From Arthrobacter sp. Bi26 (lineage in GTDB: Bacteria > Actinomycetota > Actinomycetes > Actinomycetales > Micrococcaceae), in contig NZ_CAKKMF010000012.1 in the NCBI RefSeq assembly GCF_918697925.1, positions 1 through 64,000 on the forward strand: a stretch of DNA of 64,000 bases. The letters run 5' to 3'. The notes below the pieces were generated by a model that was not told the DNA's origin, made no database searches, and was given only the letters and a program-made list of their open reading frames with translations. The position numbers were made by a program, and so were the translations under genes. How positions within the stretch are numbered: the stretch's first letter is position 1; each line of letters begins with the position of its first letter. Of this stretch, positions 42,966 to 59,627 are shown piece by piece.

Positions 42966-43736
42966 ATGACTGACTTGGGAGTCGCCGTCGTTGTGGAAGA
43001 CGACGACGACGTGCGTCATCTCGTCGAAGCTGTGTTAAGCCAGGCGGGATTTGACGTCCACGGCGCAGCGAGCGGTCGCGAGGGGGTCGAGGTCGTACGG
43101 AATGAGAAGGCCAATGTTGTCACCTTGGACGTTGGCCTCAACGATATTGACGGCTTTGAAGTCCTGCGTCGAATTCGGCAGTTCAGCGATGCCTACGTGG
43201 TCATGCTGACGGCGAGGACGGACGAGTTGGACACATTGACCGCACTGCATACCGGCGCCGACGATTTCATGACCAAACCGTTCCGGCCGCGCGAGCTCCG
43301 AGCCCGGGTCTCTGCGATGATGCGCCGGCCTCGGCAGGACGGCCCCGCTGCCGAGTCCGTGGACCCGGGAACGGCTCCGTCGAAGGCCGTTGTCCTGTCC
43401 CACGATTCGGAATTCCGGCACAACGGCCTGGTATTGAACCCACACACCCGTTCGGTCACCGTTGACGGCATTGCTGCCAGTCTCACGCGCAGTGAGTTCG
43501 ATCTCCTGCATGCCCTGTTGAAAGGGGCAGGTGCCGTCCGGTCGAAGACCGATCTGGTGCGGGTAGTGCGGGGTGAGCACTACAGCGCGGACGCCTACAT
43601 CAGTGAATCCGACGAGCGTGCCGTCGAAGTGCACATCGGCAACATGCGTCGCAAGCTGCGGGAGGATCCGCTGCACCCTCGTTGGCTCCAGACCGTCCGT
43701 GGCGTTGGGTACCGGCTCACGCCGGCCTCGGACTAG
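42966..43736 (+). CDS. OmpR-family response regulator
   Basis: The 256-residue regulator has a receiver domain with acidic pocket EDDDD (11-15), phosphoacceptor D55 in VTLDVGLND, switch T82 and K104 in FMTKPF. A winged-helix DNA-binding domain follows from about residue 150 (LTRSEFDLLHALLKGAGAVRSKTDLVRVV, then EVHIGNMRRKL and VRGVGYRL). The linker between domains, about 35 residues, is longer than average. ATG 42966 has GAGGGGGGG upstream. It is divergent from its probable kinase and overlaps the convergent Hpt-like gene by four bases. Confidence 0.95.
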   Translation: MTDLGVAVVVEDDDDVRHLVEAVLSQAGFDVHGAASGREGVEVVRNEKANVVTLDVGLNDIDGFEVLRRIRQFSDAYVVMLTARTDELDTLTALHTGADDFMTKPFRPRELRARVSAMMRRPRQDGPAAESVDPGTAPSKAVVLSHDSEFRHNGLVLNPHTRSVTVDGIAASLTRSEFDLLHALLKGAGAVRSKTDLVRVVRGEHYSADAYISESDERAVEVHIGNMRRKLREDPLHPRWLQTVRGVGYRLTPASD

Positions 43737-44194
43737 CTGTCCCCGAGGTTGTGCCTGAGCTGCAGTTCGTCCACTGTGTCGTTTCCACTCTCTGCAACTT
43801 CACGCAGGAGCAACCGCGCCAGGCGAGCGTCGCGGACGCGGATGGCGTCCTCAAGCTCTCTGGCGAGCTCGGCCAGACGGACGCCGCCGACCATCGCTGA
43901 GGACGTTTTCAGGCTCAGGACTGCGTCCAGTGCGGCCGTCTCGTCACCGCTATCAAGGGACGTCGCGAGGGATTGATAGCGATGGTCCCACATCCTTGCA
44001 TAGTCCCTGGCGAATACTTTGGCCACTGCAGGGCTGTCCAGCTGTGATCCGAGTTCCTTGAGGGCGGAGGGGTCCACGATCGGGCTCGCGACGTCTTCGG
44101 CCGCCGTTGCGGCCACGCCTGGACCGGACGGGGAGCTGTCGGCGGAGGAGCCAGTGTTTGCATCGCCGTCGTCTGGCGCACCTTGGAAGGACAT
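43733..44194 (-). CDS. Hpt-like protein lacking the phosphoacceptor histidine
   Basis: The 153-residue protein has a disordered Ser/Gly/Asp/Ala-rich N-terminus (1-40) and a helical domain (41-145). The segment AVLSLKTSSAMVGGVRLAELARELED reads like the Hpt signature AHxLKGSSANLG..L..L...LE. The histidine position is Leu93 and the following Gly is Thr97. It therefore cannot carry phosphate by the usual route. It may act as a binding or inhibitory partner of the neighbouring kinase or regulator. Its stop overlaps the regulator stop tail to tail. It lies downstream of the Tad genes on the same strand after a 118-base gap. Confidence 0.75.
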   Translation of the reverse strand: MSFQGAPDDGDANTGSSADSSPSGPGVAATAAEDVASPIVDPSALKELGSQLDSPAVAKVFARDYARMWDHRYQSLATSLDSGDETAALDAVLSLKTSSAMVGGVRLAELARELEDAIRVRDARLARLLLREVAESGNDTVDELQLRHNLGDS

Positions 44195-44312
44195 GTGCCC
44201 ACGCTACTGCCTGGTCTGGCCGATGCCCGGCGCACCGTGTGATCCTGCGGAAACCTTTCGGCTATCCCGATGGCTTCCTGAGGGTTTGCCGTGAAGGCGC
44301 CATGGGCCGGCG

Positions 44313-45197
44313 TTACTGGCCGCTGAACGTCTCGATCGTGTTGATGACGGCGGGACCCAGGATGGCAATGAAGAGGACCGGAAAGATGAAGAATAGGAGC
44401 GGAAACAGGATCATCACGGGCAGCTTCATGGCCTTCTCTTCTGCCCGCTGCCGGCGCTTGACGCGCATCACCTTGGCCTGGACGCGCAGGACGCGGCTAA
44501 TGGCGATGCCGTACGTATCCGCCTGCACCACTGCCTGGACGAAGCTCCGGAGTTCGGGGATGTTGGTGCGTTCTGCGAGGGCGAGGTAGGACTCGCGGCG
44601 GCTGCGTCCCACCTGCATGTCCTGCAGGGTGCGCACGAGTTCCTCCGCCAGCGGCCCTTTGCCGTTCTCGCCGGCGCGGGCCATGGCACCCTCGAAGCCG
44701 AGGCCGGCTTCCACAGAGATCAGCATCTGGTCCAGGGTGTTGGCGAGCTCCAGCTGCATGGCCTTCTGCCGTTCCTGCCCCTTGCTGTAGAGCATCAGAT
44801 CGGGGATGAAGTAGCCCAGGAACACTACGAACACCCCGACCAGCTTGATGATCGGCGTCGACCCAATGGAACTGAGGAACAATCCGAGCAATCCGCCCAC
44901 AACACCCAGGGCAGGTTTGGCTGCCAGCAGCCGGCCCAGGGGCATGTTTGCCGGGCGCCCGGCCAGGGACAGCAGATGATCGAGTTTGAGCACGTAGGCG
45001 GCTGGCGTGAGGCGGTAGCCGATCTTCTCGATGAAGCCTGTACTGGACTTCTTCTCCTCCTCCGCACGGTGGGTTCCCCTGGACAGGATGTCCCGGGCCA
45101 CCCTCTCGCCCTTCCTGTCGGCGGACAGCAGGGTCCACACCAGGTAGCCGAGCGGCAGACAGATCAGGAGGAGGGCGAGGACAATCAAGGGATCCAT
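44313..45197 (-). CDS. tadC: Tad pilus inner-membrane protein TadC (cluster 1)
   Basis: This 294-residue type II secretion F-domain protein is one of the two membrane platform subunits on which the TadA motor acts. Hydrophobic segments lie at residues 3-25, about 95-140 and 262-285. The F domain includes LANTLDQMLISVEAGLGFEGAM and RTLQDMQVGRSRRESYLALAERTNIPELRSFVQAVVQADTYG. It ends 118 bases before the Hpt-like gene and follows tadB by six bases. It closely resembles the cluster 2 copy at 51657-52535. Confidence 0.93.
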   Translation of the reverse strand: MDPLIVLALLLICLPLGYLVWTLLSADRKGERVARDILSRGTHRAEEEKKSSTGFIEKIGYRLTPAAYVLKLDHLLSLAGRPANMPLGRLLAAKPALGVVGGLLGLFLSSIGSTPIIKLVGVFVVFLGYFIPDLMLYSKGQERQKAMQLELANTLDQMLISVEAGLGFEGAMARAGENGKGPLAEELVRTLQDMQVGRSRRESYLALAERTNIPELRSFVQAVVQADTYGIAISRVLRVQAKVMRVKRRQRAEEKAMKLPVMILFPLLFFIFPVLFIAILGPAVINTIETFSGQ

Positions 45198-45203
45198 GGC
45201 CGG

Positions 45204-46136
45204 TCAGAACTTCAGGTCGATAATCTTGCGCATCCAGAGACCGCCAATGGTCATCAGGATGACGGACGCCACAACCATGATTCCGCCAAGAAGTGTGGTG
45301 AACATCTTGTCCATGTACCCGGGGCTGACCAACATCAGCATGGCCACAATGCCGAGCGGGAGGGCCATCAGGATGTAGGCAGAGAACTTGCCCTCCGCGG
45401 CCAGGGACTTGATGTGGCCCTTGATCTCGCTGCGTTCGCGGATGGTTTCGTTCACCTGGTCCATCACCTCGGCCAGGTTGCCGCCCACTTCGCGGTTGAT
45501 CTGGATGGCCTGGGAGATCCAGACGAAGTCCTCGTTCTTCATCCGCTCCGCCGTGTCGTTGAGCGAGGCCAGCAGGTCACGCCCCAGGCTCGTCTCCGAG
45601 ATGACCCGGCGCATCTCCTCGGAGGTGGGGGCCTGGGATTCATTGGCGGCGGCGTCGATGGCGCGAAGAATACTGTGCCCGGCGCGGAGGCTGCCGGAGA
45701 GCAGCTGCAAAGTATCGCCCAGCTGGGCATCGAATTTGGCGCGCCTCTTACCCGCCAGGAAACCCAGGACGAGGTGCCCCAGGAAAGGCGCAGCGAGCAT
45801 CAGGAGTATCGCCAGAAGGGGGCCTGCCACCACGAGGCCCACGAGTCCGCCCACGAAGGAACCGATGATCACCAGGAACAGGAAATCCGCCTGGCTCAGG
45901 CGCAGGCCTGCGTTCTCGAGGGCTTCCCGGTTGAAGAACCGGACGTTCCGCTTTGCCAGGAAGCGCTCGATCAGCTCGACGGCGGAACCCGCGAAACGGG
46001 TCAGTTGCGAGTCCGATTCGGTCCGGTAGGGCCGACGGCGATCCAGCGGTACGGTGGGGGTGCGGGGGATGAGTACTGTCGCTCCGGCCAGGGCGGCTGC
46101 CGCGACCACGAGTATGACGCTTATTATCAGGACCAT
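45204..46136 (-). CDS. tadB: Tad pilus inner-membrane protein TadB (cluster 1)
   Basis: TadB (310 residues) pairs with TadC as the pilus assembly platform. It has an N-terminal membrane segment, two more around residues 85-130, the F domain (GDTLQLLSGSLRAGHSILRAIDAAANES, then NREVGGNLAEVMDQVNETIRER) and two C-terminal membrane helices. Five bases separate it from tadA upstream. The cluster 2 paralogue is at 52546-53499. Confidence 0.93.
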   Translation of the reverse strand: MVLIISVILVVAAAALAGATVLIPRTPTVPLDRRRPYRTESDSQLTRFAGSAVELIERFLAKRNVRFFNREALENAGLRLSQADFLFLVIIGSFVGGLVGLVVAGPLLAILLMLAAPFLGHLVLGFLAGKRRAKFDAQLGDTLQLLSGSLRAGHSILRAIDAAANESQAPTSEEMRRVISETSLGRDLLASLNDTAERMKNEDFVWISQAIQINREVGGNLAEVMDQVNETIRERSEIKGHIKSLAAEGKFSAYILMALPLGIVAMLMLVSPGYMDKMFTTLLGGIMVVASVILMTIGGLWMRKIIDLKF

Positions 46137-46141: not shown

Positions 46142-47602
46142 TCAGTGCCTTCCGCTGGAGGCCACGGGCGCCCCGAAGACGCCGGCCGAAACGTGGATGC
46201 CCAGATCTTCGAAGCGGTCGATAAACCGTGGACGGATTCCGGTGGGAACCGGAGTCCCAAGGAAACGTCCGTGCTGGTCAACACCTGCGGAATAGTCGAA
46301 GACAAAGGCATCCTGGAGGGTGACGATGTCACCTTCCATGCCCTGGACTTCCGTGACGTGCGTGATGCGGCGGGTGCCGTCCCGGAGCCGGGAAATCTGG
46401 ATGATCAGGTTGACGGCGGACGCGATCTGTTCGCGGATGGCCCGCAGCGGCAGATCCATGCCGGCCATGAGCACCAGCGTTTCCAGACGGGCGACGGCGT
46501 CGCGCGGCGAGTTGGAGTGGACCGTGGAGAGCGAACCGTCGTGGCCGGTGTTCATGGCCTGGAGCATGTCCAACGATTCGCCGCCGCGGACCTCACCCAC
46601 CACGATGCGGTCCGGACGCATGCGCAGGGAGTTGCGCAGCAGTTCGCGGATGGTGACTTCACCCTTGCCTTCGGTGTTTGGCGGCCGGCTTTCCAGCCGC
46701 ACCACATGGGCCTGCTGGATCTGGAGTTCAACGGCATCCTCGATGGTCACGATGCGCTCGTTGGCCGGAAGGAAAGACGAAAGCACATTGAGAAGCGTGG
46801 TCTTGCCTGTGCCCGTACCGCCGGAAACGATGATGTTCAGCTTGGCCTTGACGCAGGCGTTGAGCAGCTCGGCCATCTCCGGGGTGAGGGTGCCGAATTC
46901 GATCAGGTTCCGGACGGTCAGCGGCACCTTGCTGAACTTACGGATGGTCAGCGATGAGCCACCGACGGCGAGCGGGGGGATCACGGCGTTGACGCGGGAG
47001 CCGTCTTCCAGTCGCGCGTCGACCAGAGGCGAGGATTCATCGATACGACGGCCCACCTTGGACACGATGCGTTCGATGACTTTGCGCAGGTGGTCCTCGG
47101 AGCTGAACATCGATTCGGTGAGCGTCAGCTGGCCCTTGCGTTCCACATAGATCTGGTCCATCCGGTTCACCATGATTTCCGTGACGTCCGGATCGTCGAG
47201 GAGCCGCTGCAGCGGTCCGTAGCCGAGCACGTCGTCGGCCACGTCCCGGACCAACCGGGAGCGCTCATCCGCCGTCAGCGGGACCTGCTCCGAATCGATG
47301 ATGCGGGTGAGCTCCTCCCGGGCCGTACTGCGCAGCTCGGCCTCCGTGATGGCAGAGTCGTTGAACCGGGCCCCCATCTTTTCGAACAGGGCGGTCGCGG
47401 CGCGCTGCTTGATCGCGGCAAAAGCGTCCACGGGCTGGTGGCCTTTGGCCTGGAAACCTTCGTGCTGGACGGACGCGCCCGGCGACTGTACCGGCTTGGC
47501 GGGCGACGCCGGCCGTTCCCGGCGTGTTGCAGCCACGGAAGTAGGGACCGGCGGGCGCGGAACCGGGGGAGCGGTGTTGGCGGCAACGGAAGCCACAGCC
47601 AT
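46142..47602 (-). CDS. tadA: Tad pilus motor ATPase TadA/CpaF (cluster 1)
   Basis: This secretion ATPase powers Flp pilus extension. Counting 486 residues from ATG 47602, Walker A is SGGTGTGKTT (260-269). The Asp box IVTIEDAVELQIQ, Walker B-like region MRPDRIVVGEVRGGE and His box TGHDGSLSTVHSNSPRDA follow. The open frame continues upstream from 47602 to the stop of the previous gene, reading LKLSERIQAAQEKT from a CTG at 47665. This matches the N-terminus of the cluster 2 copy, so the true start may be that CTG. No normal start codon is available there. Confidence 0.93.
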   Translation of the reverse strand: MAVASVAANTAPPVPRPPVPTSVAATRRERPASPAKPVQSPGASVQHEGFQAKGHQPVDAFAAIKQRAATALFEKMGARFNDSAITEAELRSTAREELTRIIDSEQVPLTADERSRLVRDVADDVLGYGPLQRLLDDPDVTEIMVNRMDQIYVERKGQLTLTESMFSSEDHLRKVIERIVSKVGRRIDESSPLVDARLEDGSRVNAVIPPLAVGGSSLTIRKFSKVPLTVRNLIEFGTLTPEMAELLNACVKAKLNIIVSGGTGTGKTTLLNVLSSFLPANERIVTIEDAVELQIQQAHVVRLESRPPNTEGKGEVTIRELLRNSLRMRPDRIVVGEVRGGESLDMLQAMNTGHDGSLSTVHSNSPRDAVARLETLVLMAGMDLPLRAIREQIASAVNLIIQISRLRDGTRRITHVTEVQGMEGDIVTLQDAFVFDYSAGVDQHGRFLGTPVPTGIRPRFIDRFEDLGIHVSAGVFGAPVASSGRH

Positions 47603-47665: not shown

Positions 47666-48859
47666 CTAGACCACAACCCGCCGGTGACTCTTACGCTGGG
47701 ATTTCGTCCGCCCGGCCGGGCTGAACCGTTCCACGAGCTGGTTGAGGCCTTTGACGGCAGGGTCCTTTCGGGCTTCCTGTAGGACGGGAACGCCACGGTT
47801 GGTGGAGAACGCGACAGCACGGGAACGCGGGACACTGACATCCACGGGGGCGCCAAGGGTGGATTCGACATCCTGGACCGAGAGACCGCACTTGGGATCG
47901 GCCATGTTGAGCACCACGTGCCGGCTTTCCGGCATGATGTCCAGCTGACGGAGGATATCGAGACCGGAACGGAGGCCGCGGACGCTGGGGATGTCCATGG
48001 CGCTCACCCAGACCACGTCGGTGCAGGCCTCCATGGCGGCCAACCCGATTTCAGGCAATCCGGGTGCGGTGTCCACCACCACGTATTGGAACTCGTCCGC
48101 CAACTGCTCCAGCAGACGGGTGATCTGCTCGGGGGTGATGTAATCGGCCTCAACCGGGCTGACGGGGGCGCAGAGGGCGTAGATGCTGGACGGGTGAACG
48201 GTGAGAAAAGCCTTCAGCACTAGCGTGTCCTGGCTAGCGGCAGGGGAGACGGCATCCGTGACCGTATGCTCGGGATTCAGGTACAGCCCGGAGGCGACGT
48301 CGCCGAACTGCAGGTCCAGATCCACGATCACCACGCTCATGGGTGCAATTTTCCCCAGGCCCACGGCGATGTTGGTGGCGATGGTGGTCTTGCCGACGCC
48401 ACCTTTGGGAGAGAACACGCCGATGACTGTGCCCTTGCCTCCTTCCGCCTGCTGAGGCTGATCCGTCCGGTGACGGCTGGCGAAGGACTGGCACGCCCGC
48501 TCCAAAAGCACCCGCATCTGCGCCGGATCGGCTGAAGGGCTGAGGATGTCCCGGACGCCGGCCCGCATGGCCTGCAGGATGAAAGCGGGATCCGGCTCGC
48601 TGACCAGGAGAACCGTCAGGTCAGGGACCTGGACGTCAAGCACGGTGGCGAGGCGCAGGGCCTCGTCGATCGGCACGTCGGGCCCCAGCACAAGAACCTC
48701 CGGCTGCTCCTGGTTCAGCTGGGCGAACAGGTCGTAGGGACCGGCGGGCAAAACATGGGTCAGGAATGTCTGCACGCCGCCCTGGAGCCCGCCGGCAACC
48801 GCCTGCCGCAAGCGGTTGTCAAAGTCCGCGTTCGGTGTGATCAGGACGAAGCGGCTCAC
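47666..48859 (-). CDS. tadZ: Tad pilus protein TadZ/CpaE, MinD-like ATPase (cluster 1)
   Basis: TadZ localises the Tad machine to its site on the membrane. The 397-residue protein has an N-terminal atypical receiver-like domain (1-130) with EVLVLGPDVPIDEAL and TVLLVSE. A ParA/MinD ATPase follows with the deviant Walker A SPKGGVGKTTIATNIAVGLG and VVIVDLDLQFGDVASGL. An Arg/Lys-rich tail (KSQRKSHRR) ends the protein. Its start overlaps the end of cpaB by four bases. Confidence 0.92.
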   Translation of the reverse strand: MSRFVLITPNADFDNRLRQAVAGGLQGGVQTFLTHVLPAGPYDLFAQLNQEQPEVLVLGPDVPIDEALRLATVLDVQVPDLTVLLVSEPDPAFILQAMRAGVRDILSPSADPAQMRVLLERACQSFASRHRTDQPQQAEGGKGTVIGVFSPKGGVGKTTIATNIAVGLGKIAPMSVVIVDLDLQFGDVASGLYLNPEHTVTDAVSPAASQDTLVLKAFLTVHPSSIYALCAPVSPVEADYITPEQITRLLEQLADEFQYVVVDTAPGLPEIGLAAMEACTDVVWVSAMDIPSVRGLRSGLDILRQLDIMPESRHVVLNMADPKCGLSVQDVESTLGAPVDVSVPRSRAVAFSTNRGVPVLQEARKDPAVKGLNQLVERFSPAGRTKSQRKSHRRVVV

Positions 48860-49623
48860 TTGTAGACCTCACTCCGCTGAATGATCCGGGGGCCGCCGTC
48901 CGTGGCGTCGAGCGGTTCCTTGCTCAGCCACATCTTGGCGTATTCGGCGGCGAACACAATCTTGGCGGCGTCCACGTCGCTGACCGCCACGGTGAGCATG
49001 AGTGAGCCGACCGGAAGGGTCGTGTCTCGAGGATCGGCTGTGGCGCTCGCGGTGGGTGTGGGCTGGGCGGCGGGGGTCGCCTCTGGAGCGCGCTGCACTG
49101 CGGTCACAAGCGCCTTTCGGACAGTCAACTTGGTGGTCTCCTTGTCGGCCTTGTCTGCCAGACCGCCGGCATCCATCGAAACGAAGACCCCCACGTGATC
49201 GCCAGGAACCAGACGGCCACCGATAACGCGATCCGGCTCCAGCTGAAAGGAGACCTCTTGAAGACCGGCCGGGATGTCTACCGCCCCTTGGATTTTGAGG
49301 TTTTCGGGTTCCACCAGCCGTTCTTTCACGAGCTGCTCGCCGGGAATGAGGTCGACTGCGGCAACCTTGCCTTGGGACTCATCCAGCGACTTGAGCGATG
49401 AAGCAGTTACGGCCGCTGCAGGCAGCTGTTCAGTAGCGATGGAAGCGCTCATGGCTTCCACCGGCGTTCCCGCGGGGATCGCTGCCTTGACTACCAAGAC
49501 GCTCACAGGCTCAAGGTTCTTGACGGCCCGCTGGTCCGCGCCCTGGGCGTAGGAAACGACCAGTAATGCGCCGATGATGGCGAGGACAACTGCCGCCGCT
49601 CCTGCCAACAACCGAGACTTCAC
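48856..49623 (-). CDS. cpaB: Tad pilus protein CpaB/RcpC (cluster 1)
   Basis: This 255-residue protein has an N-terminal membrane anchor (residues 5-26) and a SAF domain (SVLVVKAAIPAGTPVEAM, then LIPGEQLVKERLV). In diderm bacteria it works with the RcpA secretin. No secretin gene occurs here, as expected for a monoderm, so its role must be within the envelope, perhaps wall passage of the pilus. A Thr/Ala/Pro-rich insert near residue 200 is present. It is translationally coupled to tadZ and lies 42 bases after the TadG-like gene. Confidence 0.9.
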   Translation of the reverse strand: MKSRLLAGAAAVVLAIIGALLVVSYAQGADQRAVKNLEPVSVLVVKAAIPAGTPVEAMSASIATEQLPAAAVTASSLKSLDESQGKVAAVDLIPGEQLVKERLVEPENLKIQGAVDIPAGLQEVSFQLEPDRVIGGRLVPGDHVGVFVSMDAGGLADKADKETTKLTVRKALVTAVQRAPEATPAAQPTPTASATADPRDTTLPVGSLMLTVAVSDVDAAKIVFAAEYAKMWLSKEPLDATDGGPRIIQRSEVYK

Positions 49624-49665: not shown

Positions 49666-50691
49666 CTAGCTGGTCAACTCAACGACGGTGGCGCCGTATG
49701 GGCTGACGGGACCAAGCTTGTAGCCGTCGGACAAAGAGACGTAGTTGACGAATTTGCCGATGATCCCCCGGCAGTTACCTTTGCAGTCCAGGTTTTTGTC
49801 GGAGGATGTATTGCGGTAGACCATCGGCAGCTTATCGGCGCCGCTGAAAGCCCAGCCTTGAACGCTGAAGGCGGCGAAAGCCAGGAGTTTGTAGGACGCC
49901 CCGGACCCGGTTCCGCTGACATCCTGATAGACCGGCAGCAGCACAGTGACTGTGTTGCCTGCAGCGAGATCGCTAGCCCATTTGTTCAGTACCGCATCGC
50001 AATTTGACGGTCCGTCATTCCCAGTGGCGCTGCCGCTTTGATTGACGGCCAGGTTCACTATCCCGCCGCACTGCCCAGAGCTCTGGACGATCCAGCCAAA
50101 GCCTCCCTCCACCGTCTTGCCGGCGGGCCCCAGGGGGCAATCGGTATTGGCATTCGCGGAGTGGTTCTGGAGCAGCTGCATTGCGCCGCCCACCATCCCG
50201 GACACCTGGCAGATGGAGAATGTCAGTGGAAACGGTGTTGTGCCCTCAGTCGGGCTTCCCCACCGCACGGAAGAACTGGCGGCAACTTCGGCGCTGGTGA
50301 TCCCCAGCGCCCTGGCGAAGAAAAGGGAGATTATATTGGGAGCGCTGCCAGTTTCATTGGCGCGGGTGATTACCTTGACCGTGCGTCCGATTGTGTCCAA
50401 GGTGATGGACTCTACGCCGCTCTTTGCGTCCAGGGCGTTGGCGTTAGCCAAGTCTGCTGCGAGGGGGGAGGAACTGGAACAATTTGTTGCGTCACCCGCA
50501 TTCTTGGCGCACTTCTGGGCCACCATGAGCGCGGCCGAGTCGGCGCCATTCTGCAGTTGTGCCTGCTCGGAGTAGAGCTTCCCGACATCGATGGCGATGG
50601 CCGCGAAGCCGAGCAGAACCACCATAAGAAGGGCAACGATGACCGCGATTCCGCCGCGTTCCTTGTCCGCTCGTACTGCTAGCCCCCGCAC
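49666..50691 (-). CDS. TadG-like pseudopilin/pilus protein (cluster 1)
   Basis: The 341-residue protein starts with an N-terminal membrane segment after ERGGIAVIVALLMVVLLGFAAIAIDVGKLY, the TadE/TadG signature. A helical LQNGADSAAL segment and a large extracytoplasmic domain with several cysteines follow, including CKGNCRG near the C-terminus. Such proteins are processed like pilins and are needed for pilus function. The start is GTG 50691, overlapping the tadE 3' end by 13 bases. The C-terminal domain differs from that of the cluster 2 copy. Confidence 0.85.
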   Translation of the reverse strand: MRGLAVRADKERGGIAVIVALLMVVLLGFAAIAIDVGKLYSEQAQLQNGADSAALMVAQKCAKNAGDATNCSSSSPLAADLANANALDAKSGVESITLDTIGRTVKVITRANETGSAPNIISLFFARALGITSAEVAASSSVRWGSPTEGTTPFPLTFSICQVSGMVGGAMQLLQNHSANANTDCPLGPAGKTVEGGFGWIVQSSGQCGGIVNLAVNQSGSATGNDGPSNCDAVLNKWASDLAAGNTVTVLLPVYQDVSGTGSGASYKLLAFAAFSVQGWAFSGADKLPMVYRNTSSDKNLDCKGNCRGIIGKFVNYVSLSDGYKLGPVSPYGATVVELTS

Positions 50692-51065
50692 AGCATCGTT
50701 CCTTTTCCTGTCATTACGAACGGTCCGGCTATGCCTGTCATCGTTTTGAGGGTGTAGCTGATTGTCACAGTCATTAGTTTTGACTCACTACACGTGTCGG
50801 TTCCATCGGAGGCAAGGAATTTGATATCGGTATCGGACAACGTCGGGCTGAGCGTGCTGGCCGCGCGTATTGCGGCGTCGCGGGCCGGCGCCGCTGTGTT
50901 CGTGATAGCCATCACTCGCACGCCCTCGCGGGCGGCGTTGGTCAGTGAGATTTGGGCGTTGTAGGCGCGCCCAAACTCCATGATTCCGAGTAGGAGCATG
51001 ATCAGCACAGGTGCTATGAGCGCGAACTCAACTGCCACGGCACCGCGCTCGGATGCCTTAGACAT
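50679..51065 (-). CDS. tadE: TadE-like pseudopilin (cluster 1)
   Basis: The 128-residue protein has the TadE motif SERGAVAVEFALIAPVLIMLLLGIMEFGRAYNAQISLTNAAREG near its N-terminus, with Gly just before the hydrophobic helix as probable prepilin-peptidase site. A small beta-rich domain with two cysteines follows. It lies 73 bases after the pilin gene flp and overlaps the next gene. Confidence 0.9.
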   Translation of the reverse strand: MSKASERGAVAVEFALIAPVLIMLLLGIMEFGRAYNAQISLTNAAREGVRVMAITNTAAPARDAAIRAASTLSPTLSDTDIKFLASDGTDTCSESKLMTVTISYTLKTMTGIAGPFVMTGKGTMLCGG

Positions 51066-51375: not shown

Positions 51376-51570
51376 TGTGGACTCCTGAGCGAGCGAAGGG
51401 AAGCTGGTCAGATGCCAGCTCTGCCAGAAAGCTAGCAACGCGATTCGTCAGAAGTTACGCTGCTTGCCACATCCTGCGGTAAGACTTCCCTAACTGCACA
51501 TTTCCTGAGGATTTCCTGCGCGTAATCTGTGCTCAAACTGCTCCGGGACTCACAGGGATGGCACACGAAG

Positions 51571-51603
51571 GGACCCCCTAGGCTCTGGGGTCCAAGGGGG
51601 TCC
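51571..51603 (-). other. Competing hairpins between Tad clusters
   Basis: GGACCCCC (51571-51578) can pair with GGGGTCC at 51587-51593 or with GGGGGTCC at 51596-51603, but not both. It lies between tadC of cluster 2 and flp1. It may terminate cluster 2 transcription partially; no T-run is present. Confidence 0.45.
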
Positions 51604-51656
51604 GGCCCATTTAGGCGTGGTTGTTAGCCTCACCGATACTTCCTGCCTGCGGTGTC

Positions 51657-52535: not shown

Positions 52536-52545
52536 GTTTTCCTCC

Positions 52546-53499
52546 TCAGAACTTTGGCTTGATGAGACGGCTGAGCCAGAAAGCCCCGAGGCTGAGCATG
52601 ACGGCGGCGACCGCAATCATGATGTAGCCCGGAACCGTTGACGAGAACGTCTTGGAATAGACCGGATTGATGAATTGCAGTGCGATGAACAACACAATTG
52701 GCAGCGAGACCAGAACTATGGCGGACATTCGTCCTTCAGCGCTGAGGGCTTTCACTTGGCGCCTGACCTGGTTCCGATCGCGGATCGTCTCGCCCACGTG
52801 GTCGAGGACCTCGGCCAGATCCCCGCCAACCTCGCGGTGGATTTCTATGGCCTGGGCGATCCAAGCGAAGTCCTCGTTCTTGGTCCGGTCGGCGACATCG
52901 AGGAGGGACTCGCCCAGGTCGCGGCCGATACGCGTCTCATTGACAACGCGGCTTAGTTCATCCGCCATCGGGGCGTCGTTTTCCTGGCCTGCAGCATCAA
53001 GCGAGCGAAGCAGGCTATGCCCGGCTCGCATGCCGCCGGAGAGCATCCGGAGCGTGTCCGGAACCTGGTCATCGAACTTCGCTCGGCGGCGCGAGACGAG
53101 CAAGTTCAAACTCAACGCGAATCCAATTGGTGCGGCGATGATCAGGAGAATCGCCGGGAACATACCTCCCAACAGAAATCCGACGACCCCTGCCAGCACG
53201 GTGATGATGCCAGCTAGGAGCAAGTAGTCCGCGGGCTGTTTCTTGAGGCCGGCGCTGTCCAGCCGGCGCCGAGACAGGATGCCCGAAGGCTGGGGCTTGA
53301 GTCGGGCATCGATCACGCCCAGCGTCGCGTCTGTCAGCTTTGACAGGGTGGAGGATTGCGCGGCGCCAGCCGGCCGGCGCCGTTCCGCCGAAATGACGTT
53401 TCGAGACTTCAGGATGACCCAGAAAACGATAACGAGGGCCAAATAGACCAGCGCCAGGCCCAGCACCATGACCGCAGGAGAAGCATCGTCGGGGATCAT
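52546..53499 (-). CDS. tadB: Tad pilus inner-membrane protein TadB (cluster 2)
   Basis: The 317-residue protein has an N-terminal membrane helix (8-31) and a central helix pair. The F domain has DTLRMLSGGMRAGHSLLRSLDAAGQE and HREVGGDLAEVLDHVGETIRDR, and two C-terminal helices follow. Its start overlaps the tadA stop by four bases. It pairs with TadC of cluster 2. Confidence 0.92.
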   Translation of the reverse strand: MIPDDASPAVMVLGLALVYLALVIVFWVILKSRNVISAERRRPAGAAQSSTLSKLTDATLGVIDARLKPQPSGILSRRRLDSAGLKKQPADYLLLAGIITVLAGVVGFLLGGMFPAILLIIAAPIGFALSLNLLVSRRRAKFDDQVPDTLRMLSGGMRAGHSLLRSLDAAGQENDAPMADELSRVVNETRIGRDLGESLLDVADRTKNEDFAWIAQAIEIHREVGGDLAEVLDHVGETIRDRNQVRRQVKALSAEGRMSAIVLVSLPIVLFIALQFINPVYSKTFSSTVPGYIMIAVAAVMLSLGAFWLSRLIKPKF

Positions 53500-54968
53500 C
53501 GGACACTCCCAACATGCGCCCCGAAAACGGCAGGCGAGATTTGAATGCCGAGTTCCACGAACCTGTCGGTGAACCGCGGACGGACGCCGGTGGGTATCGG
53601 CTTGCCGAGGAACCTGCCATTGGCGTCCACGCCGGCGGAATAGTCGAAGACAAAGGCGTCCTGGAGGGTGACAATGTCGCCTTCCATGCCTTGCACCTCG
53701 GTGATGTGCGTGACACGGCGGCTACCGTCACGGAGCCTTGTGATGTGCACGATGAGGTTCACCGCGGAAGCGACTTGTTCGCGGATAGCCCGCAGCGGCA
53801 AGTCCATCCCGGCCATCAGCACCAGCGTCTCCAGCCGGGCCACCGCATCCCTGGGGGAATTGGCGTGAACGGTGGAGATTGACCCATCATGGCCGGTGTT
53901 CATGGCCTGGAGCATGTCCAACGATTCGCCGCCGCGGACCTCGCCGACGACAATACGGTCCGGCCGCATGCGGAGCGAATTGCGGACGAGTTCGCGAATT
54001 GAAACCTCGCCGCGGCCCTCGATGTTGGCCGGCCGACTTTCGAGCCGCACTACATGTTCCTGCTGCAACTGGAGCTCCACGGCGTCCTCGATAGTCACAA
54101 TGCGGTCTGTCTCCGGGATGAAGGAAGACAGGACATTGAGCAAGGTGGTCTTGCCGGTGCCGGTACCGCCGGAGACGATGATGTTCATTCGCGCCAGGAC
54201 ACAGGCCTGCAGGAGTTCAGCCATTTCCGGGGAGAGGCTGCCGAACTCGATGAGCTTGTTCACGGTGAGGGCTTCGCGGGCAAACTTTCGGATGGTCAGC
54301 GAAGGACCATTGACGGCCAAGGGCGGAATGATGGCGTTCACACGCGAGCCATCGGCAAGCCGCGCATCAACCAACGGCGAGGACTCATCGATCCGTCGAC
54401 CCACCCGGGAGACGATCCGTTCAATGACCCGGCGGAGCGCCTCGTCCGAACTGAACTTGGCATCTGTTTTTTGCAGGTGGCCATACCGTTCCACGTAGAT
54501 GCTGTCATGGCGGTTGACCATGACTTCCGTGACTTCGGGATCGTCGAGGAAACGCTGGATCGGACCGTGGCCCAGTACGTCGTCGATGATTTCGCGGGTT
54601 AGTCGCTGCCTTTCAGCCGAGGAAAGGGGGACCTGCTCCGCGTCCACGACCTCCTTGAGTTCATCCTTGACATGCTGGTGCAGCTCGGATTCATCCATCG
54701 AGGAGTCCGAGATCCTGGAGCCGAGCCGCTCGTAAAGGGCCAAGCTTGCCCGCTCTTTGAGCCCACGGAGGGCCTCGCTGGCCATGCCGGCGTTGGGACC
54801 GACTTCTTCGACCACGAGTGCCGCGCTGGCAGCATCGGCGGCTTTGGCTTCCTGAATTCGGCCAAGGGTCGAGGGGAAGCCCGGGCTCGTCTGGGCTTCC
54901 GACGGCGTGGCCGTCTCGCCGTCCTGGCTGCCGTGCCGCAATTGTTCAAATCTCCTGGTGAGACTCAC
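53496..54968 (-). CDS. tadA: Tad pilus motor ATPase TadA/CpaF (cluster 2)
   Basis: The 490-residue secretion ATPase has Walker A SGGTGTGKTT (267-276), IVTIEDAVELQLQ, MRPDRIVVGEVRGGE and TGHDGSISTVHANSPRDA, nearly the same as the cluster 1 enzyme. The N-terminal 60 residues are variable. GTG 54968 overlaps the tadZ stop by four bases and gives MSLTRRFEQLR; a much longer upstream frame runs inside tadZ and is a shadow. This start is the model for the missing start of the cluster 1 gene. Confidence 0.94.
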   Translation of the reverse strand: MSLTRRFEQLRHGSQDGETATPSEAQTSPGFPSTLGRIQEAKAADAASAALVVEEVGPNAGMASEALRGLKERASLALYERLGSRISDSSMDESELHQHVKDELKEVVDAEQVPLSSAERQRLTREIIDDVLGHGPIQRFLDDPEVTEVMVNRHDSIYVERYGHLQKTDAKFSSDEALRRVIERIVSRVGRRIDESSPLVDARLADGSRVNAIIPPLAVNGPSLTIRKFAREALTVNKLIEFGSLSPEMAELLQACVLARMNIIVSGGTGTGKTTLLNVLSSFIPETDRIVTIEDAVELQLQQEHVVRLESRPANIEGRGEVSIRELVRNSLRMRPDRIVVGEVRGGESLDMLQAMNTGHDGSISTVHANSPRDAVARLETLVLMAGMDLPLRAIREQVASAVNLIVHITRLRDGSRRVTHITEVQGMEGDIVTLQDAFVFDYSAGVDANGRFLGKPIPTGVRPRFTDRFVELGIQISPAVFGAHVGSVR

Positions 54969-56170
54969 TGGACTACCGCCCTTCGGTGGAGCTTGCGATG
55001 TGTTCGGTCCTGCCAATTCGGCTGGAAACGTTCTACGAGTTGACGAAGGCCCTTCGCTGCGACATCCCGGCGGCCGTCCTGAAGGATGGGAACACCCTTG
55101 TTGGTCGAAAAGGGCAGGGTCCTGGAGCGCGGTATGGCGATGTCGACCGGCACACCAATGGTTGCTTCCACGTCGGGGACGGAGAGCCCGCTCCTGCCGT
55201 CGGCCATGTTCAGCACAACATGCCGACTTTCCGGCATGAGGCCGAGCTCGTTGAGGATGTGAAAACCGGTGCGGAGCCCGCGGATGCTCGGCACGTCCAT
55301 GCCGCACACCCAGACGGCATCCGTCGCCTGCTCCAGCGCAGCAAGGACATGCTCCCCAAGTCCAGGCGCGGTGTCGATGACTACGTACTGGAACTCATGC
55401 CGCAACTGCTTCAGGAGGTTGGTGACGTGCGCCGCCGTAATCCCCTCCATTTCCACGGGATCCCTCGGCCCACACAGTGCGTAGATGTTTGCCGAGTGCA
55501 GCGCAAGATACGTCTTGAGCACCATAGAGTCCTGGCTGGCCGCACCCGTAACAGCGTCCGCGATCGTGTGTTCCGGGTCCAGCAACAGGCCACTGGCGAC
55601 ATCCCCGAACTGCAGGTCCAGGTCGACGATGACAACCCCCATCGGCGCCACCTTTCCCAGTCCGACCGCGATGTTGGTCGCGATGGTGGTCTTGCCCACG
55701 CCACCCTTCGGCGACATCACGGCGATGACCCGTCCCCCGGTACCTCCAACCGGCGACCCTGCGGTGCTTGGGTTCAGGCCCCTCCGGCGGCCGGCTGCGG
55801 CCAAACTGGAACGTTCGACCATCGCCCGGATGCCGCTGCTATCAGCCGCGGGGGAAAGGATGTCCCGCACTCCCGAACGCATTGCAGCCAGAACCAGCTC
55901 CGGGGTCTGCTCGGCGGCCAACAGGACACTGATCTCCGGATACTGAAGGTCCAGGAGCGCTGCGTGCTTCAGGGTGTCGTCCAAGTCCAGACCGGGGCCC
56001 AGGATAAGGACTTCCGGCGGCTCTCCGAGCAATTTACTCAGGAATTCGTCCGGACCTTCCGGCAGGTAATCTGCCTGGAACCATTGCAGGCTGCCACTCA
56101 TGCCGGCGGTGGCGGAGCGGACCTTTCGTTCGAAGTCGACGCTGGGCGTGATCAGTACGAAGCGGCTCAT
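54965..56170 (-). CDS. tadZ: Tad pilus protein TadZ/CpaE, MinD-like ATPase (cluster 2)
   Basis: A 401-residue protein with an N-terminal receiver-like domain lacking a clear phosphorylation pocket (EVLILGPGLDLDDTL). A MinD-like ATPase follows with SPKGGVGKTTIATNIAVGLG and VVIVDLDLQFGDVASGLLLD. It ends KLHRRAVVQ, a basic tail like its paralogue. Its start overlaps cpaB by four bases and its stop overlaps tadA. Confidence 0.92.
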   Translation of the reverse strand: MSRFVLITPSVDFERKVRSATAGMSGSLQWFQADYLPEGPDEFLSKLLGEPPEVLILGPGLDLDDTLKHAALLDLQYPEISVLLAAEQTPELVLAAMRSGVRDILSPAADSSGIRAMVERSSLAAAGRRRGLNPSTAGSPVGGTGGRVIAVMSPKGGVGKTTIATNIAVGLGKVAPMGVVIVDLDLQFGDVASGLLLDPEHTIADAVTGAASQDSMVLKTYLALHSANIYALCGPRDPVEMEGITAAHVTNLLKQLRHEFQYVVIDTAPGLGEHVLAALEQATDAVWVCGMDVPSIRGLRTGFHILNELGLMPESRHVVLNMADGRSGLSVPDVEATIGVPVDIAIPRSRTLPFSTNKGVPILQDGRRDVAAKGLRQLVERFQPNWQDRTHRKLHRRAVVQ

Positions 56171-56955
56171 TGGAATACCCTGATGCGTTCCATGACGCCG
56201 GTGTTAGTCGTCGTCGAGCTTGCCGATTCCTTGCTGAGGTACACCTTGCCGAACTCGATGGCGTGGACGATCTTCTCTACGTCGATCGAGGGCCGGGCCA
56301 AAGTGACGAGGTATCCACCGTTCGCCTGTGCGGCGCTTGACTTGGCGCTCAGGGCCCCGTCGGAGGAACTTTCCGTGGTCGTCGTCGCCGACTGATCCTG
56401 TGCTACGGCGCCCGTGGAGTTCTGGACCGCCGTCACCAGCACCTTATGGAAGACCAGCTGAGACTGGTCCGGGACGTTCAGCTTGTCGTTCGCCGCATAG
56501 GACAGAATCACCCCTACGGTATCGCCGGCCTTCAGGCTGCCACCGACAATTCTGTCGAGGGTCAACTTGACCGCGACTTCCTGAAGTCCGCTGGGGACGG
56601 CCACGCGGCCCGCGCCGACCAGCTGTGTCGGGTCCACCATTCGGGTGGCCAGGAGCTGTTCGCCGGGGACCAGTCCGACGGCGGAGACCTTCTGGCCGAG
56701 TTCAGCCAGGGTGGTGACGCTGTCGCTTGCCACCGCTGACTTGGGTACAGATTTCTTAACGATTGAATCACCGAAGTTTGCTGCGGACGTTCCGGCCGCA
56801 ATTTCTTTTTGAACCACATAGACCTCAGCGGTTTCTGTGTTTGCCAGGGCGCGCCGATCGGCGCCTTGGACGTAGGACACAAGCAGAACTGTTCCGATGA
56901 TGGCCACAACGAGTGCGGCGATGCCTCCCAGCAGGCGAGCTTTCAATTCTTCCAC
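56167..56955 (-). CDS. cpaB: Tad pilus protein CpaB/RcpC (cluster 2)
   Basis: The 262-residue protein has a membrane anchor (residues 10-30, GGIAALVVAIIGTVLLVSYVQG) and a SAF domain (VYVVQKEIAAGTSAANF, then LVPGEQLLATRMVDPTQL). A Ser/Thr/Ala-rich insert lies near residues 190-205. No secretin is encoded nearby. It is coupled to tadZ and lies 22 bases after the TadG-like gene. An ATG-proximal AAAGGGG is the ribosome binding site. Confidence 0.9.
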   Translation of the reverse strand: MEELKARLLGGIAALVVAIIGTVLLVSYVQGADRRALANTETAEVYVVQKEIAAGTSAANFGDSIVKKSVPKSAVASDSVTTLAELGQKVSAVGLVPGEQLLATRMVDPTQLVGAGRVAVPSGLQEVAVKLTLDRIVGGSLKAGDTVGVILSYAANDKLNVPDQSQLVFHKVLVTAVQNSTGAVAQDQSATTTTESSSDGALSAKSSAAQANGGYLVTLARPSIDVEKIVHAIEFGKVYLSKESASSTTTNTGVMERIRVFQ

Positions 56956-56977: not shown

Positions 56978-57985
56978 TTATTTAATGAGACCGAGAATTT
57001 TAATGTTTCCGGTAGGGGCGGTTGAACCACCCGTGAATAGGCTTGGATCGGCGAAATACCCGACAAAGGTCCCGTAAAGGCCTTTTTGGCTCGTAGTAAA
57101 GACGTTGGTGGGATCATGGGAATTTCCAGGAAATTTCCAACCCTGGACTTCGAAACCCGCCCACTTTTCGATCATGTACTTAACGTTGCTTCCGGTGCAG
57201 GGCGAGAACATGTCCTTGCAGGTGTATTTGAAGACCGGAATTGCGACCGTCTGACCGACGAGGCCGCTGCTGAAGAGGGCGTCACAGCCGGATGGCATAG
57301 CAGCGCCGGCGCTTGTTTTGCTCCACTGACCAACTTCCGCGGTCACCTCGCACCCTGTGGAGCCGTCCGGGTCCAGCCAGGCAAAGCCGCCCGGGATGAT
57401 CTGGTTGGAGGGGTTTCGTCCAGTGCAGTCCACTGCTCCGGCGCCGCCACCCTGTGTCAGGATTTTGTGCGGGAGGCCGTCATCGATGAACTCGCAGGGC
57501 GCAAAGGTCAGTGGAAGGATGCTGCGGCCCCGCGTCGGGAATTCCCATTTGGCGGTAGCAGTAGCGCCGACTCCGATGTCGGGCGTATCGAGGGCGTTGG
57601 CGAATAGCTTGCTCAGGAACCCTGACCCGTTGGTGCCGTTCACTGTTGCCGTGCTGACGGTGACTTCGAAGGGAACGCTAAGGTCAACGAACCGGACCCT
57701 GGAGACTCCGTCCTTCGAGTTCTGATTCGCCAGGAGTGCTGCGACGGCGTTGGCGTCTGCTTGGGTGCATCCTGCTGTTTCGGAGCAGATCTGTGCGCCC
57801 GCCAGCGCCCCGGCGTCGGCGGCGTTTTGAAGTTCCGCGCGTTCTGCGTAGATCTGGCCGACATCGACGGCGATGGCGCCGACGCCAATGAGGACAAGCA
57901 TCATCACGGCGACCAGTACGCCGGCTGCGCCCCGCTCAGAGTCCTGGTTCTCCGTAACTGAAGTTAGTCGGGCAAACGTTCGCAT
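56978..57985 (-). CDS. TadG-like pseudopilin/pilus protein (cluster 2)
   Basis: The 335-residue protein starts with SERGAAGVLVAVMMLVLIGVGAIAVDVGQIYAERAELQNAADAGAL, the membrane helix and following segment of TadG-like proteins. An extracytoplasmic domain with at least eight cysteines follows (CSETAGC, CEF, CKDMFSPC). The cysteine pattern is different from the cluster 1 copy, so each machine appears to have its own tip or accessory protein. It overlaps the tadE gene by 22 bases. Confidence 0.85.
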   Translation of the reverse strand: MRTFARLTSVTENQDSERGAAGVLVAVMMLVLIGVGAIAVDVGQIYAERAELQNAADAGALAGAQICSETAGCTQADANAVAALLANQNSKDGVSRVRFVDLSVPFEVTVSTATVNGTNGSGFLSKLFANALDTPDIGVGATATAKWEFPTRGRSILPLTFAPCEFIDDGLPHKILTQGGGAGAVDCTGRNPSNQIIPGGFAWLDPDGSTGCEVTAEVGQWSKTSAGAAMPSGCDALFSSGLVGQTVAIPVFKYTCKDMFSPCTGSNVKYMIEKWAGFEVQGWKFPGNSHDPTNVFTTSQKGLYGTFVGYFADPSLFTGGSTAPTGNIKILGLIK

Positions 57986-58356
57986 CGCATGGCTCCTTCT
58001 CCGGTTACCGTGACAGTCGGACTGAAAAATCCGGTGAGGGCCGGCCGTGTGAAGGTGACGGTGGCCGTGACCGTGGCGCCCGGCGTGCAGGCCCCAGAGA
58101 AGGCGAAATTCCCCGGGGCAATGGCTACTCCCGGAGCGCCGGCCACGCCAGCGGCGGCGGCCAGGCCGACATCGTTGCTGACCGCCATCTCACGGGCCGC
58201 TTCGCGGGCTGCCTGGGTCACCGAGATCTGGAGATTGTAGAAGTTCGAGAATTCCAGGATCCCGACGACGATTAGCAGGAGCACGGGCGCGATAAGGGCG
58301 AACTCGACCGCGACCGCGCCGCGCTCCCGTCCCGGCATAACTTTGCTGCGTTTCAC
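57964..58356 (-). CDS. tadE: TadE-like pseudopilin (cluster 2)
   Basis: The 130-residue protein has RERGAVAVEFALIAPVLLLIVVGILEFSNFYNLQISVTQAAREAAREMAV, the TadE N-terminal helix with pilin-like cleavage site. A short Gly/Ala-rich domain with two cysteines follows. GGGGG upstream of ATG 58356 is the ribosome binding site. It is 101 bases after flp2. Confidence 0.9.
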   Translation of the reverse strand: MKRSKVMPGRERGAVAVEFALIAPVLLLIVVGILEFSNFYNLQISVTQAAREAAREMAVSNDVGLAAAAGVAGAPGVAIAPGNFAFSGACTPGATVTATVTFTRPALTGFFSPTVTVTGEGAMRCERLPD

Positions 58357-58457
58357 AGTTTCCCCCCGAGGAATGTGACGCTGGATCTAATGAAAAGTGC
58401 CGCGTCCGCGTTTGGCGGACGCGGCACTCCTGGATGAGACCTGGTGGTGAATGCTGG

Positions 58458-58658
58458 CTACCAGGTGCCTACGGTGGTGGCGAGACCGTCGAAGAAAGTG
58501 TTCAGGGCGCCTCCGAAAGCCGTGACGCCGAAGGTAATGGCCAGGGCGATGAGACCGACGAGCAGACCATACTCAGTCGCGGTGGCACCCTTTTCGGATT
58601 CCATCTTGTCCTTGACGCCGGCGATGAAAGAGACCATTGAGATCATGAGACCAGTCAT
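58458..58658 (-). CDS. flp: Flp-type pilin (cluster 2)
   Basis: The 66-residue prepilin has SEKGATATEYGLLVGLIALAITFGVTAFG, with Gly, then the Glu at +5-type position and one hydrophobic helix. It ends shortly after the helix with GLATTVGTW and has no cysteine, unlike Flp1. ATG 58658 follows AAGGAAAAA. A 270-base AT-richer region precedes it and should hold the promoter of the pilus operon. Confidence 0.9.
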   Translation of the reverse strand: MTGLMISMVSFIAGVKDKMESEKGATATEYGLLVGLIALAITFGVTAFGGALNTFFDGLATTVGTW

Positions 58659-58928
58659 TTTAGTTTTTCCTTTTCCAGAGATTGAGTAATGAACGAATTT
58701 CCGGCAAATCCCCGATTGCTTATTTGCTGGAGCTTCGTTGAGACAACATTTGCACGGCCACAAACGGCGCGGCAATGATGTCCGATACTCGACTTTTGGA
58801 GGGAAAAAATGGGTATCACCTGCCCTCAAACGGGGGTGTACTCAGTTTCTAAGTTGGGGTGGGGCTTCCACTACTTGGTTTGATAAGCCGTCTTACTTAA
58901 TGCGCGCCCGGGTGAAGGCGGAGACCAC
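58659..58928 (-). promoter_or_regulatory. AT-richer leader region of flp2
   Basis: This gap between the prepilin peptidase gene and flp2 is clearly richer in A and T than its surroundings. No promoter stands out. On the plus strand GGAGGG (58798-58803) precedes a 24-codon frame at 58809-58883, whose status is doubtful. Confidence 0.4.
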
Positions 58929-59627
58929 TTAGGGGAGCAGCAGGATGATGGCCAGACCGGCAGCAAGCATCGAGGGGCCGTAGGGCACTTCTTTCGGCTT
59001 GTTTCCGCGGTTTTTGAGGACCAGGAGCAGGGAGGCGACGCCACCTAAGACGAATCCCAGGGCGCCGCCGTAGAACAAGTGGGACCAGCCTAAGTAGCCC
59101 AAGTACAGGCCAAGTGGTGCCGCAAGCTTCACATCGCCCATTCCGAGGCCGTTTCGGCTGGTCAGAGCGAGAAAAAGGTACAAAACGAACATTATTGAGG
59201 CGCCGGCGACCCCGCGTAGCAGGCTACCTGCCTCGCCGGACACTCCCGCGGCGGCCCCGAGTAGCACAATTCCGGCCCCTAATAGGGGGAGGACCATCCG
59301 GTTAGGCAGCAAGTGGTGCTGCAGGTCGATCCGCGCCAGCTGCACGCCGGCCACGGCCAGCAGGACGTACGCGGGGAGCTCGGGGGAGAGCCCAAAGCGC
59401 CAGGCCAGCAGGGCGGACAACGCGAAGGTGGCCGCCGCCGTCGTAAGTCTTATGCGTACTGTCAGTGGTCCGCCCAGGCGGGGGAGTGCGCGCCGGATGA
59501 GGAGCTCGGCCAACAGGGACAGGCATGCGCCCGCGAGGCCAACGCCGGCTATGAACAGGACCCCGGTGAGTGATCCGGCCGGTTGTGCGAGCAGCAGGGA
59601 GATGGAGCCGGCGGCGGGATCGGACAC
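58929..59627 (-). CDS. Prepilin peptidase (A24 family)
   Basis: This 232-residue membrane aspartic peptidase cleaves and may methylate prepilins. The two catalytic Asp motifs are visible: RIDLQHHLLPNR and the GxGD-type NGLGMGDVKLAAPLG. Six to seven hydrophobic helices cover most of the sequence, and the cysteine-rich N-terminal domain of PilD is absent. GTG 59627 is chosen because GGAGG lies 6 bases upstream; an earlier start at 59717 would add 30 residues without such a site. It is the only prepilin peptidase in the window and may serve both Tad systems. Confidence 0.9.
   Translation of the reverse strand: MSDPAAGSISLLLAQPAGSLTGVLFIAGVGLAGACLSLLAELLIRRALPRLGGPLTVRIRLTTAAATFALSALLAWRFGLSPELPAYVLLAVAGVQLARIDLQHHLLPNRMVLPLLGAGIVLLGAAAGVSGEAGSLLRGVAGASIMFVLYLFLALTSRNGLGMGDVKLAAPLGLYLGYLGWSHLFYGGALGFVLGGVASLLLVLKNRGNKPKEVPYGPSMLAAGLAIILLLP

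Follow-up and report, generated by a model that had tools for sequence, protein, structure and literature searches.

The DNA analyzed here, a stretch of 64,000 nt from Arthrobacter sp. Bi26 (contig NZ_CAKKMF010000012.1, positions 1 to 64,000; hereafter, the window), carries two complete, tandem sets of Tad/Flp (type IVc) pilus genes between rplM and truA. We consider it probable that this site is an island in which pilus machines are exchanged between better-inherited edges, and that the histidine kinase, response regulator and Hpt-like protein encoded on its truA side (the trio) control one of the two sets through a predicted regulator box upstream of flp2 and hpt. An earlier note on this DNA had described the two sets (set 1, 58658-51657; set 2, 51375-44313; both on the minus strand and in the order flp-tadE-tadG-cpaB-tadZ-tadA-tadB-tadC), one prepilin peptidase gene at their upstream end (58929-59627) and the genes of the trio downstream. 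It was correct in this: both sets, the peptidase, hpt and the regulator were identified by Pfam matches that were all above the curated cut-offs, and the kinase gene was found at 41433-42755, just outside the region that the note had delimited. Each set comprises, in one locus, a flp gene with a G/XXXXEY site together with tadE, tadG, tadZ, tadA, tadB and tadC, and a prepilin peptidase is present, which identifies both as Tad/Flp systems.

The protein-by-protein comparison that the earlier note had proposed gave identities of 34-72% between the sets (TadA 72% over 448 positions, TadZ 59%, TadC 53%, TadE 42%, TadB 41%, CpaB 40% and TadG 34%). Flp1 and Flp2 are 39% identical over 54 core columns, and each of the eight pairs scored far higher than its 100 shuffled versions (z 17 to 184). 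TadA, TadZ and TadC are the most similar pairs. The N-termini of TadA, about 35 residues each when counted from the chosen starts, could not be aligned.

The phylogeny of the sets was assessed with a tree of 86 of 88 sets, two having been dropped for missing genes. A quick tree with Shimodaira-Hasegawa-like approximate likelihood ratio test (SH-aLRT) support and the single-gene trees used 55 of the 86 rows, hand-picked for speed; approximately unbiased (AU) tests used 53 of these, and a later tree combined 25 earlier rows with 23 new sets. Downstream sets, which include set 2 of the window, formed one clade (support 100 with 35 rows, 100 with 18 rows, and recovered for 4 of 4 single genes). 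Sets in the upstream slot split into deep clades A (including set 1 of the window), B and C; clade B includes the set of conjugative plasmid pYA7-1b, and the sets of G010, G030 and plasmid pACHL01 fall outside all three (G-numbers denote genomes and L-numbers loci of the comparison set). The slot thus holds at least three deep lineages, one of them common to a conjugative plasmid. Four loci of another genus carry the same tandem, with upstream members beside clade A and downstream members inside the set-2 lineage, and the split between set 1 and set 2 is older than the genus. The trees disagree on how clades A, B and C relate to set 2: in the 55-row tree the upstream sets and G033 form one clade sister to set 2 (SH-aLRT 96), whereas the later tree groups clade C and G033 with set 2 (support 98). 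The clade of upstream sets plus G033 was recovered only for tadZ and tadB among four single genes, and AU tests rejected none of three constrained groupings, the one with this clade as sister to set 2 having the best likelihood.

The closest relatives differ between the two window sets, being G005 for set 1 and ISL-5, a different species, for set 2. A recent tandem duplication was rejected on the basis of the identities between the sets and of the placement of the two sets in separate supported clades with other species. Comparison of the sequences supports the view that sets 1 and 2 are related whole operons with an ancient split and diverged pilins. The old whole-operon duplication proposed in the earlier note is thus upheld as far as age and relatedness go; the history is probably not that of a simple in-situ duplication passed on by descent, because the nearest relatives of the two sets belong to different species, sister species hold different upstream lineages and the split is older than the genus.

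We compared these patterns with a species tree based on rpoB and rpoC (36 genomes, excluding G013, a fragment, and G026). In this tree the window groups with G014, G030, G031, G010, G023 and G018, and the upstream slot of these seven genomes contains clade A (window, G023), clade B (G014, G031), the G010/G030 lineage, or nothing (G018). In the rpoB region of G029 (L109), rpoB is split over several frames, perhaps owing to sequencing errors. Rank correlations (rho) of protein distance with species distance were computed over 10 to 34 genomes per gene, after exclusion of two extra Hpt matches (L064, L066). They were highest for genes at the edges (regulator 0.74, truA 0.71, glmM 0.69, rplQ 0.68, hpt 0.63, kinase 0.62), with 0.45 for the peptidase and 0.34 for rpsI. 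Within set 2, values were 0.35 for cpaB, 0.29 for tadZ, 0.48 for tadA, 0.46 for tadB and 0.41 for tadC; the same five genes of the upstream slot gave 0.17-0.23, and tadE and tadG of either set 0.01-0.09. The upstream slot and tadE/tadG are the clear cases of exchange.

Taken as one unit, set 2 of the window has its nearest relatives in ISL-5, Soil736, G002 and G035. Its cpaB2, tadZ2, tadB2 and tadC2 are each nearest to G002 or G035, and tadA2 alone is nearest to G024 (92.7%). For hpt, regulator and kinase, by contrast, the closest counterparts are those of G014 or G031, which belong to the window's own species group. DNA identities switch over between tadC2 and hpt, where there is an apparent exchange breakpoint. 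Together, these observations suggest that the rplM-truA site is an exchange island at which whole machines have been swapped between species.

The trio adjoins tadC2 in all 28 genomes with set 2 in the same-genus sample (27 of the 36 relatives of the window genome that make up this sample, plus the window itself). Among eight near-complete genomes without set 2, the trio is at the locus in three (G010, G030, G031) and not in five (Fisher p 0.00015, with relatedness ignored). Two genomes, G012 and G021, carry set 2 joined by the trio at a different place, and their rplM-truA site holds another set without the trio.

In a scan for direct repeats, the region in front of the window's flp2 was found to contain an 8-bp sequence twice without mismatch, at a spacing of 11 bp. 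Regulators of the OmpR/PhoB type are associated with direct repeats approximately 11 bp apart at their targets. The candidate regulator site (51471-51520, minus strand) consists of direct repeats resembling CGCAGGAA with 11-bp spacing (51502-51520) and the box AAGTCTTACCGCAGGAT (51471-51487); a second copy of the box, matching at 12/14 positions, lies upstream of hpt (44242-44258, minus strand). Paired repeats with this spacing (p ≤ 0.02) were found in 27/35 set-2 regions, as would be expected of OmpR/PhoB targets, and at p 0.02 also in G010, in G030 and, with a differing sequence, upstream in G004. For motif counts we excluded regions shorter than 250 bp or longer than 1600 bp, and for box counts those shorter than 100 bp or longer than 1600 bp; L079 and G002, apparently one genome with identical rows, are counted twice in the promoter numbers. 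CGCAGG was found in 33/34 set-2 regions (mean 1.88, expected 0.38) vs 6/37 other regions (mean 0.22, expected 0.22), and GAGTAC in 34 of the 37 non-set-2 regions (mean 2.46, expected 0.05). The 13/34 set-2 regions that contain GAGTAC were rejected as carrying a promoter box, the first match in each being in pilin codons or just before the flp start. The box itself, at p ≤ 0.02, was present in 32/34 set-2 flp regions vs two of 50 others, those of G010 and G030, each of which carries the trio, in none of 34 upstream-slot sets of clades A-C, and in 22/37 gaps between tadC and hpt. The set-1 promoter of the window (58660-58930) contains one GAGTAC and one GAGTAT. Scans for sigma-70 promoter and terminator consensus sequences revealed no excess over shuffles.

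The flp2 site is the only exact match to the box pattern in the window genome. A wide box regulon in this genome was rejected (five matches with at most one mismatch, against three for a reversed-pattern control), as was autoregulation through the box, which was absent from all 38 regulator upstream regions.

We tested the link between trio and box in held-out genera, with a criterion fixed beforehand (box at least 12/14, p ≤ 0.02, trio right after tadC). At p ≤ 0.06, a limit picked after the values were known, 7/11 sets near a trio and 0/11 without one scored (Fisher p 0.004; ranks p 5e-5). That count assigns to the trio group L141 and L151, which the script had labeled as lacking hpt on account of its 50-bit cut and 1500-bp limit; counting L151 as without trio gives 6/10 vs 1/12 (p 0.02; ranks p 0.0008), and the script labels at p 0.05 give 4/9 vs 2/13. 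The 11 tested sets without any nearby trio in other genera scored at most 9/14. Six set-2-lineage loci (L138-140, L143, L144, L152) have no trio in the stretch covered, and none of the five testable ones has a box. Given these loci without a box and the higher scores beside a trio, box occurrence tends, within these limits, to track the trio and not the lineage. The held-out test supports a trio-box link in rank, but not by the strict criterion. These associations suggest that the two-component system serves set 2 alone of the two sets, although it may affect set 1 indirectly. The switch between the two pili that the earlier note had envisaged is not favored, given the constant company of trio and set 2 and a box that lies at flp2 and often at hpt but never in clades A-C.

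Several observations weigh against an exchange island with a set-2-specific trio. The relatives are non-independent samples, and the values for rpsI, a core gene, and for the peptidase are such that the set-2 correlations alone are no proof of exchange. In G031 the trio is present although set 2 and the box are both missing, and in six of the seven other stretches with an Hpt-like gene, the regulator and Hpt-like pair lies tail to tail with no tad gene found nearby. Upstream sets of G004 (p 0.01) and G028 (p 0.04) also score for direct repeats, albeit of different sequence, and CGCAGG is present in the six upstream regions mentioned above. The regulator genes themselves are without the box, and since repeat and box were first noticed in set-2 promoters, their enrichment there is partly by construction. 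By the strict held-out criterion there was no difference between sets with the trio (1/10) and those without (1/12), and the pass counted among the latter, L151, has a trio about 3.5 kb away.

The Hpt-like protein (43733-44194, minus strand; Hpt, E 2.5e-6) was predicted by AlphaFold to adopt the helical bundle of the Hpt fold (mean predicted local distance difference test score 78.9), and the best PDB match of the model was HptB of Pseudomonas (7c1i; E 5.8e-4; template modeling scores 0.67/0.88). In Hpt domains, the phospho-accepting His lies three residues before a conserved Lys. This His was not found in any of 40 aligned rows, all of which have Leu or Ile instead (Leu in the window, VLSLKTSS), and a phosphorelay through the protein is therefore unlikely. 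A literature search on Hpt domains without their His gave nothing fitting among the papers listed. That such a protein is conserved without its His next to a regulator of the OmpR type suggests that the Hpt fold can act outside phosphorelay. Loci L126-L132 hold paralogous regulator/Hpt-like pairs, with a kinase nearby in some and no tad genes in the stretches covered.

In the mechanism that we propose, a cell without an outer membrane carries two complete Tad machines, probably transcribed separately, between rplM and truA. The two borders would pass down with the chromosome, closely in the case of the trio next to truA and more loosely in that of the peptidase next to rplM. The machines in between would be replaced through homologous exchange and through transfer, some of it on plasmids, and species would differ in their combinations accordingly. 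The kinase would phosphorylate the OmpR-type regulator, which would bind the direct repeats with 11-bp spacing in front of flp2 and of hpt and would control both pilus 2 and the Hpt-like protein; the latter, taking no phosphate on the usual His, would probably bind the regulator (or the kinase) as a feedback modulator. Set 1, with its separate promoter signature of GAGTAC boxes, would answer to a different regulator. The sequences themselves show the gene content, the phylogeny, the association of trio and box with set 2 and the missing His; we infer regulator binding, the sign of control and the feedback, as well as the function of the pili (adhesion, biofilm formation or DNA uptake). A wider generalization, that in Arthrobacter and its kin whole Tad machines are swapped like surface-antigen cassettes and that the occupant of the slot is captured by a two-component system that resides there and includes an Hpt-like protein unable to take phosphate, with feedback through the flp/hpt box, is possible but on balance doubtful.

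Other explanations were considered. The trio could be an unrelated neighbor of set 2 and the box could belong to another regulator, as the regulator-Hpt pairs without tad genes, the lack of a box at the regulator itself, the state of G031 and the weak strict held-out outcome would allow. We regard this as unlikely, because the trio accompanies set 2 even outside the island in G012 and G021, the box also precedes hpt, sets of other genera without a nearby trio score low, and 11-bp direct repeats suit a regulator of the OmpR/PhoB type. Quite unlikely, in our view, is an old tandem duplication in which a doubled operon was passed down vertically in both copies, with the two-component system as the switch between the pili. 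Identical gene order, membership of the same Tad clade, the sister grouping in the 55-row tree and in the best-likelihood constrained tree, and the tandem in another genus with its members in the corresponding lineages would all fit it; however, the upstream sets hardly track the species tree and differ in lineage between sister species, the later tree places clade C with set 2, and the box is missing from every upstream-slot set of clades A-C.

A composite pilus that needs both sets jointly, as for tad-1 and tad-2 of Micrococcus luteus, is very unlikely here. In that species, mutants of either locus are described as having lost extracellular Flp complexes, and transformation was lost in nearly all, the tadB mutant retaining it partly (PMC4322843). 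The single peptidase gene of the island would agree with joint use, but both window sets are complete, flp included, the promoter signatures differ, and in the same-genus sample seven genomes have a single set of this family that is not set 2 and an eighth has only set 2. Furthermore, the window genome has two other Tad-type loci that could be the counterparts of those of M. luteus. The resemblance to M. luteus lies in the presence of two Tad clusters in an actinobacterial genome with a single prepilin peptidase candidate; its loci are about 1.2 Mb apart and are reported to have no TadZ orthologue, a fused TadB-TadC in tad-2 and one Flp of typical size (PMC4322843), whereas the window sets are adjacent and complete, a comparison made by gene content and not by direct homology.

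An exchange island of this kind recalls capsule and O-antigen loci, in which conserved edges enclose exchanged cassettes for surface structures, but here whole pilus machines rather than sugar pathways would be swapped. The PprAB system reportedly controls flp-tad in Pseudomonas aeruginosa and is not known to have a His-less Hpt-like partner. The likeness to PprAB concerns the linkage of a two-component system to a Tad pilus, not the regulator class or sites (PMC3510237, PMC6821963). Mobile tad loci of Actinomycetota are also described on plasmids of, e.g., Cutibacterium acnes (PMC5696575); here, the plasmid set is kin to the chromosomal upstream slot. Frequent transfer and plasmid carriage are reported for Tad systems generally (PMC6668835), and three tad loci for Vibrio vulnificus (PMC6748444). 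A literature search by title and beginning of abstract, with most subscription journals outside its coverage, found no description of this island. Because exchange can be traced here at a single place in the chromosome, flanked by genes with steadier inheritance, its rate, its donors and the selection behind it (phages, surfaces, DNA uptake) become testable.

The remaining features of the locus are on the minus strand unless noted. The A24 peptidase gene (58929-59627; Peptidase_A24, E 1.3e-13), the only one within the island, has a likely GTG start at 59627 after GGAGG. In set 1, flp1 (58458-58658; Flp_Fap, E 1.5e-13) encodes a pilin with a G/ATATEY site and is separated from the minor pilin gene tadE1 (57964-58356; TadE, E 1.4e-16) by a hairpin with a T tail (58357-58457; minimum free energy -49.1 kcal/mol, z -5.46 over 58340-58457), a possible attenuator. 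There follow tadG1 (56978-57985; PF13400, E 3.3e-11), cpaB1/rcpC (56167-56955; RcpC, E 2.5e-10), tadZ1 (54965-56170; AAA_31, E 8.7e-16), the motor ATPase gene tadA1/cpaF (53496-54968; T2SSE, E 2.1e-68), whose start is most likely the GTG at 54968, overlapping the tadZ1 stop, rather than 55307, and the platform genes tadB1 (52546-53499; T2SSF, E 1e-20) and tadC1 (51657-52544; T2SSF, E 2.3e-18). A GC-rich hairpin between the operons (51571-51603) is, from its sequence, a candidate set-1 terminator and resembles hairpins in several relatives; the region 51555-51625 folds no better than shuffles (z -1.2).

In set 2, flp2 (51139-51375; Flp_Fap, E 8.4e-16) encodes a pilin with a G/ATAVEY site and, as read from the sequence, a C-terminal tail with two cysteines. 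It precedes tadE2 (50679-51065; TadE, E 3.3e-19), tadG2 (49666-50691; PF13400, E 1.9e-12), cpaB2/rcpC (48856-49623; RcpC, E 2.5e-9, and SAF), tadZ2 (47666-48859; AAA_31, E 9.7e-14), tadA2/cpaF, for the motor ATPase (46142-47602; T2SSE, E 4.5e-68), tadB2 (45204-46136; T2SSF, E 2.8e-19) and tadC2 (44313-45197; T2SSF, E 2.3e-17). Strong hairpins lie 3′ of both flp genes (58357-58457 and 51066-51138, the shuffle comparison covering the first), and perhaps yield more pilin than machine. The OmpR/PhoB-type regulator gene (42966-43736, plus strand; Response_reg, E 1e-26; Trans_reg_C, E 8.3e-19) and hpt converge, with 3′ ends that overlap by 4 bp. The membrane histidine kinase (41433-42755) has six hydrophobic segments and the H-box His; it was identified with NCBIfam rather than Pfam, by related kinase models, 25/25 among the matches listed being below their cut-offs.

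The window genome (5.1 Mb, 217 contigs) encodes two further T2SSE-family ATPases over the cut-off, on contigs C29 and C63, where two additional Tad-type loci (L076 and L077, respectively) are located, which may correspond to tad-1 and tad-2 of M. luteus. A second A24 peptidase is encoded on contig C105. Tad/Flp systems share with this locus flp, tadE, tadG, cpaB/rcpC, tadZ, tadA, tadB, tadC and an A24 peptidase; the window differs in its two complete tandem sets, their recurrent place between ribosomal genes, and the secretin RcpA/CpaC (PF00263), for which the window genome gave no match while 6/14 control genomes were positive. A secretin is expected in diderms only and is not required of monoderm Tad systems, and its absence fits a cell without an outer membrane. 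Because loss of the secretin has been described for monoderm Tad systems (PMC6668835), membership is not excluded.

Seven named relatives were found via TadZ2 (five Arthrobacter, two Pseudarthrobacter), which places the window with Arthrobacter. Two neighboring tadA genes of this kind, about 7-9 kb apart except in G009, are present in 24/36 same-genus relatives, so that the tandem is ordinary in the genus; two relatives have copies at separate places, eight a single copy and two none, one of the latter from a genome only 68% complete. Among 197 genomes sampled from the family, 67 had at least one such tadA at E ≤ 1e-150 and 19 had two. The tadA pair of G009 (L061/L062) is 14.5 kb apart, indicating about 7 kb of additional sequence that separates or interrupts the sets. 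G032, without any set, has an empty site (rplQ-truA-rplM-rpsI-glmM) in which the truA and rplM frames are 222 bases apart.

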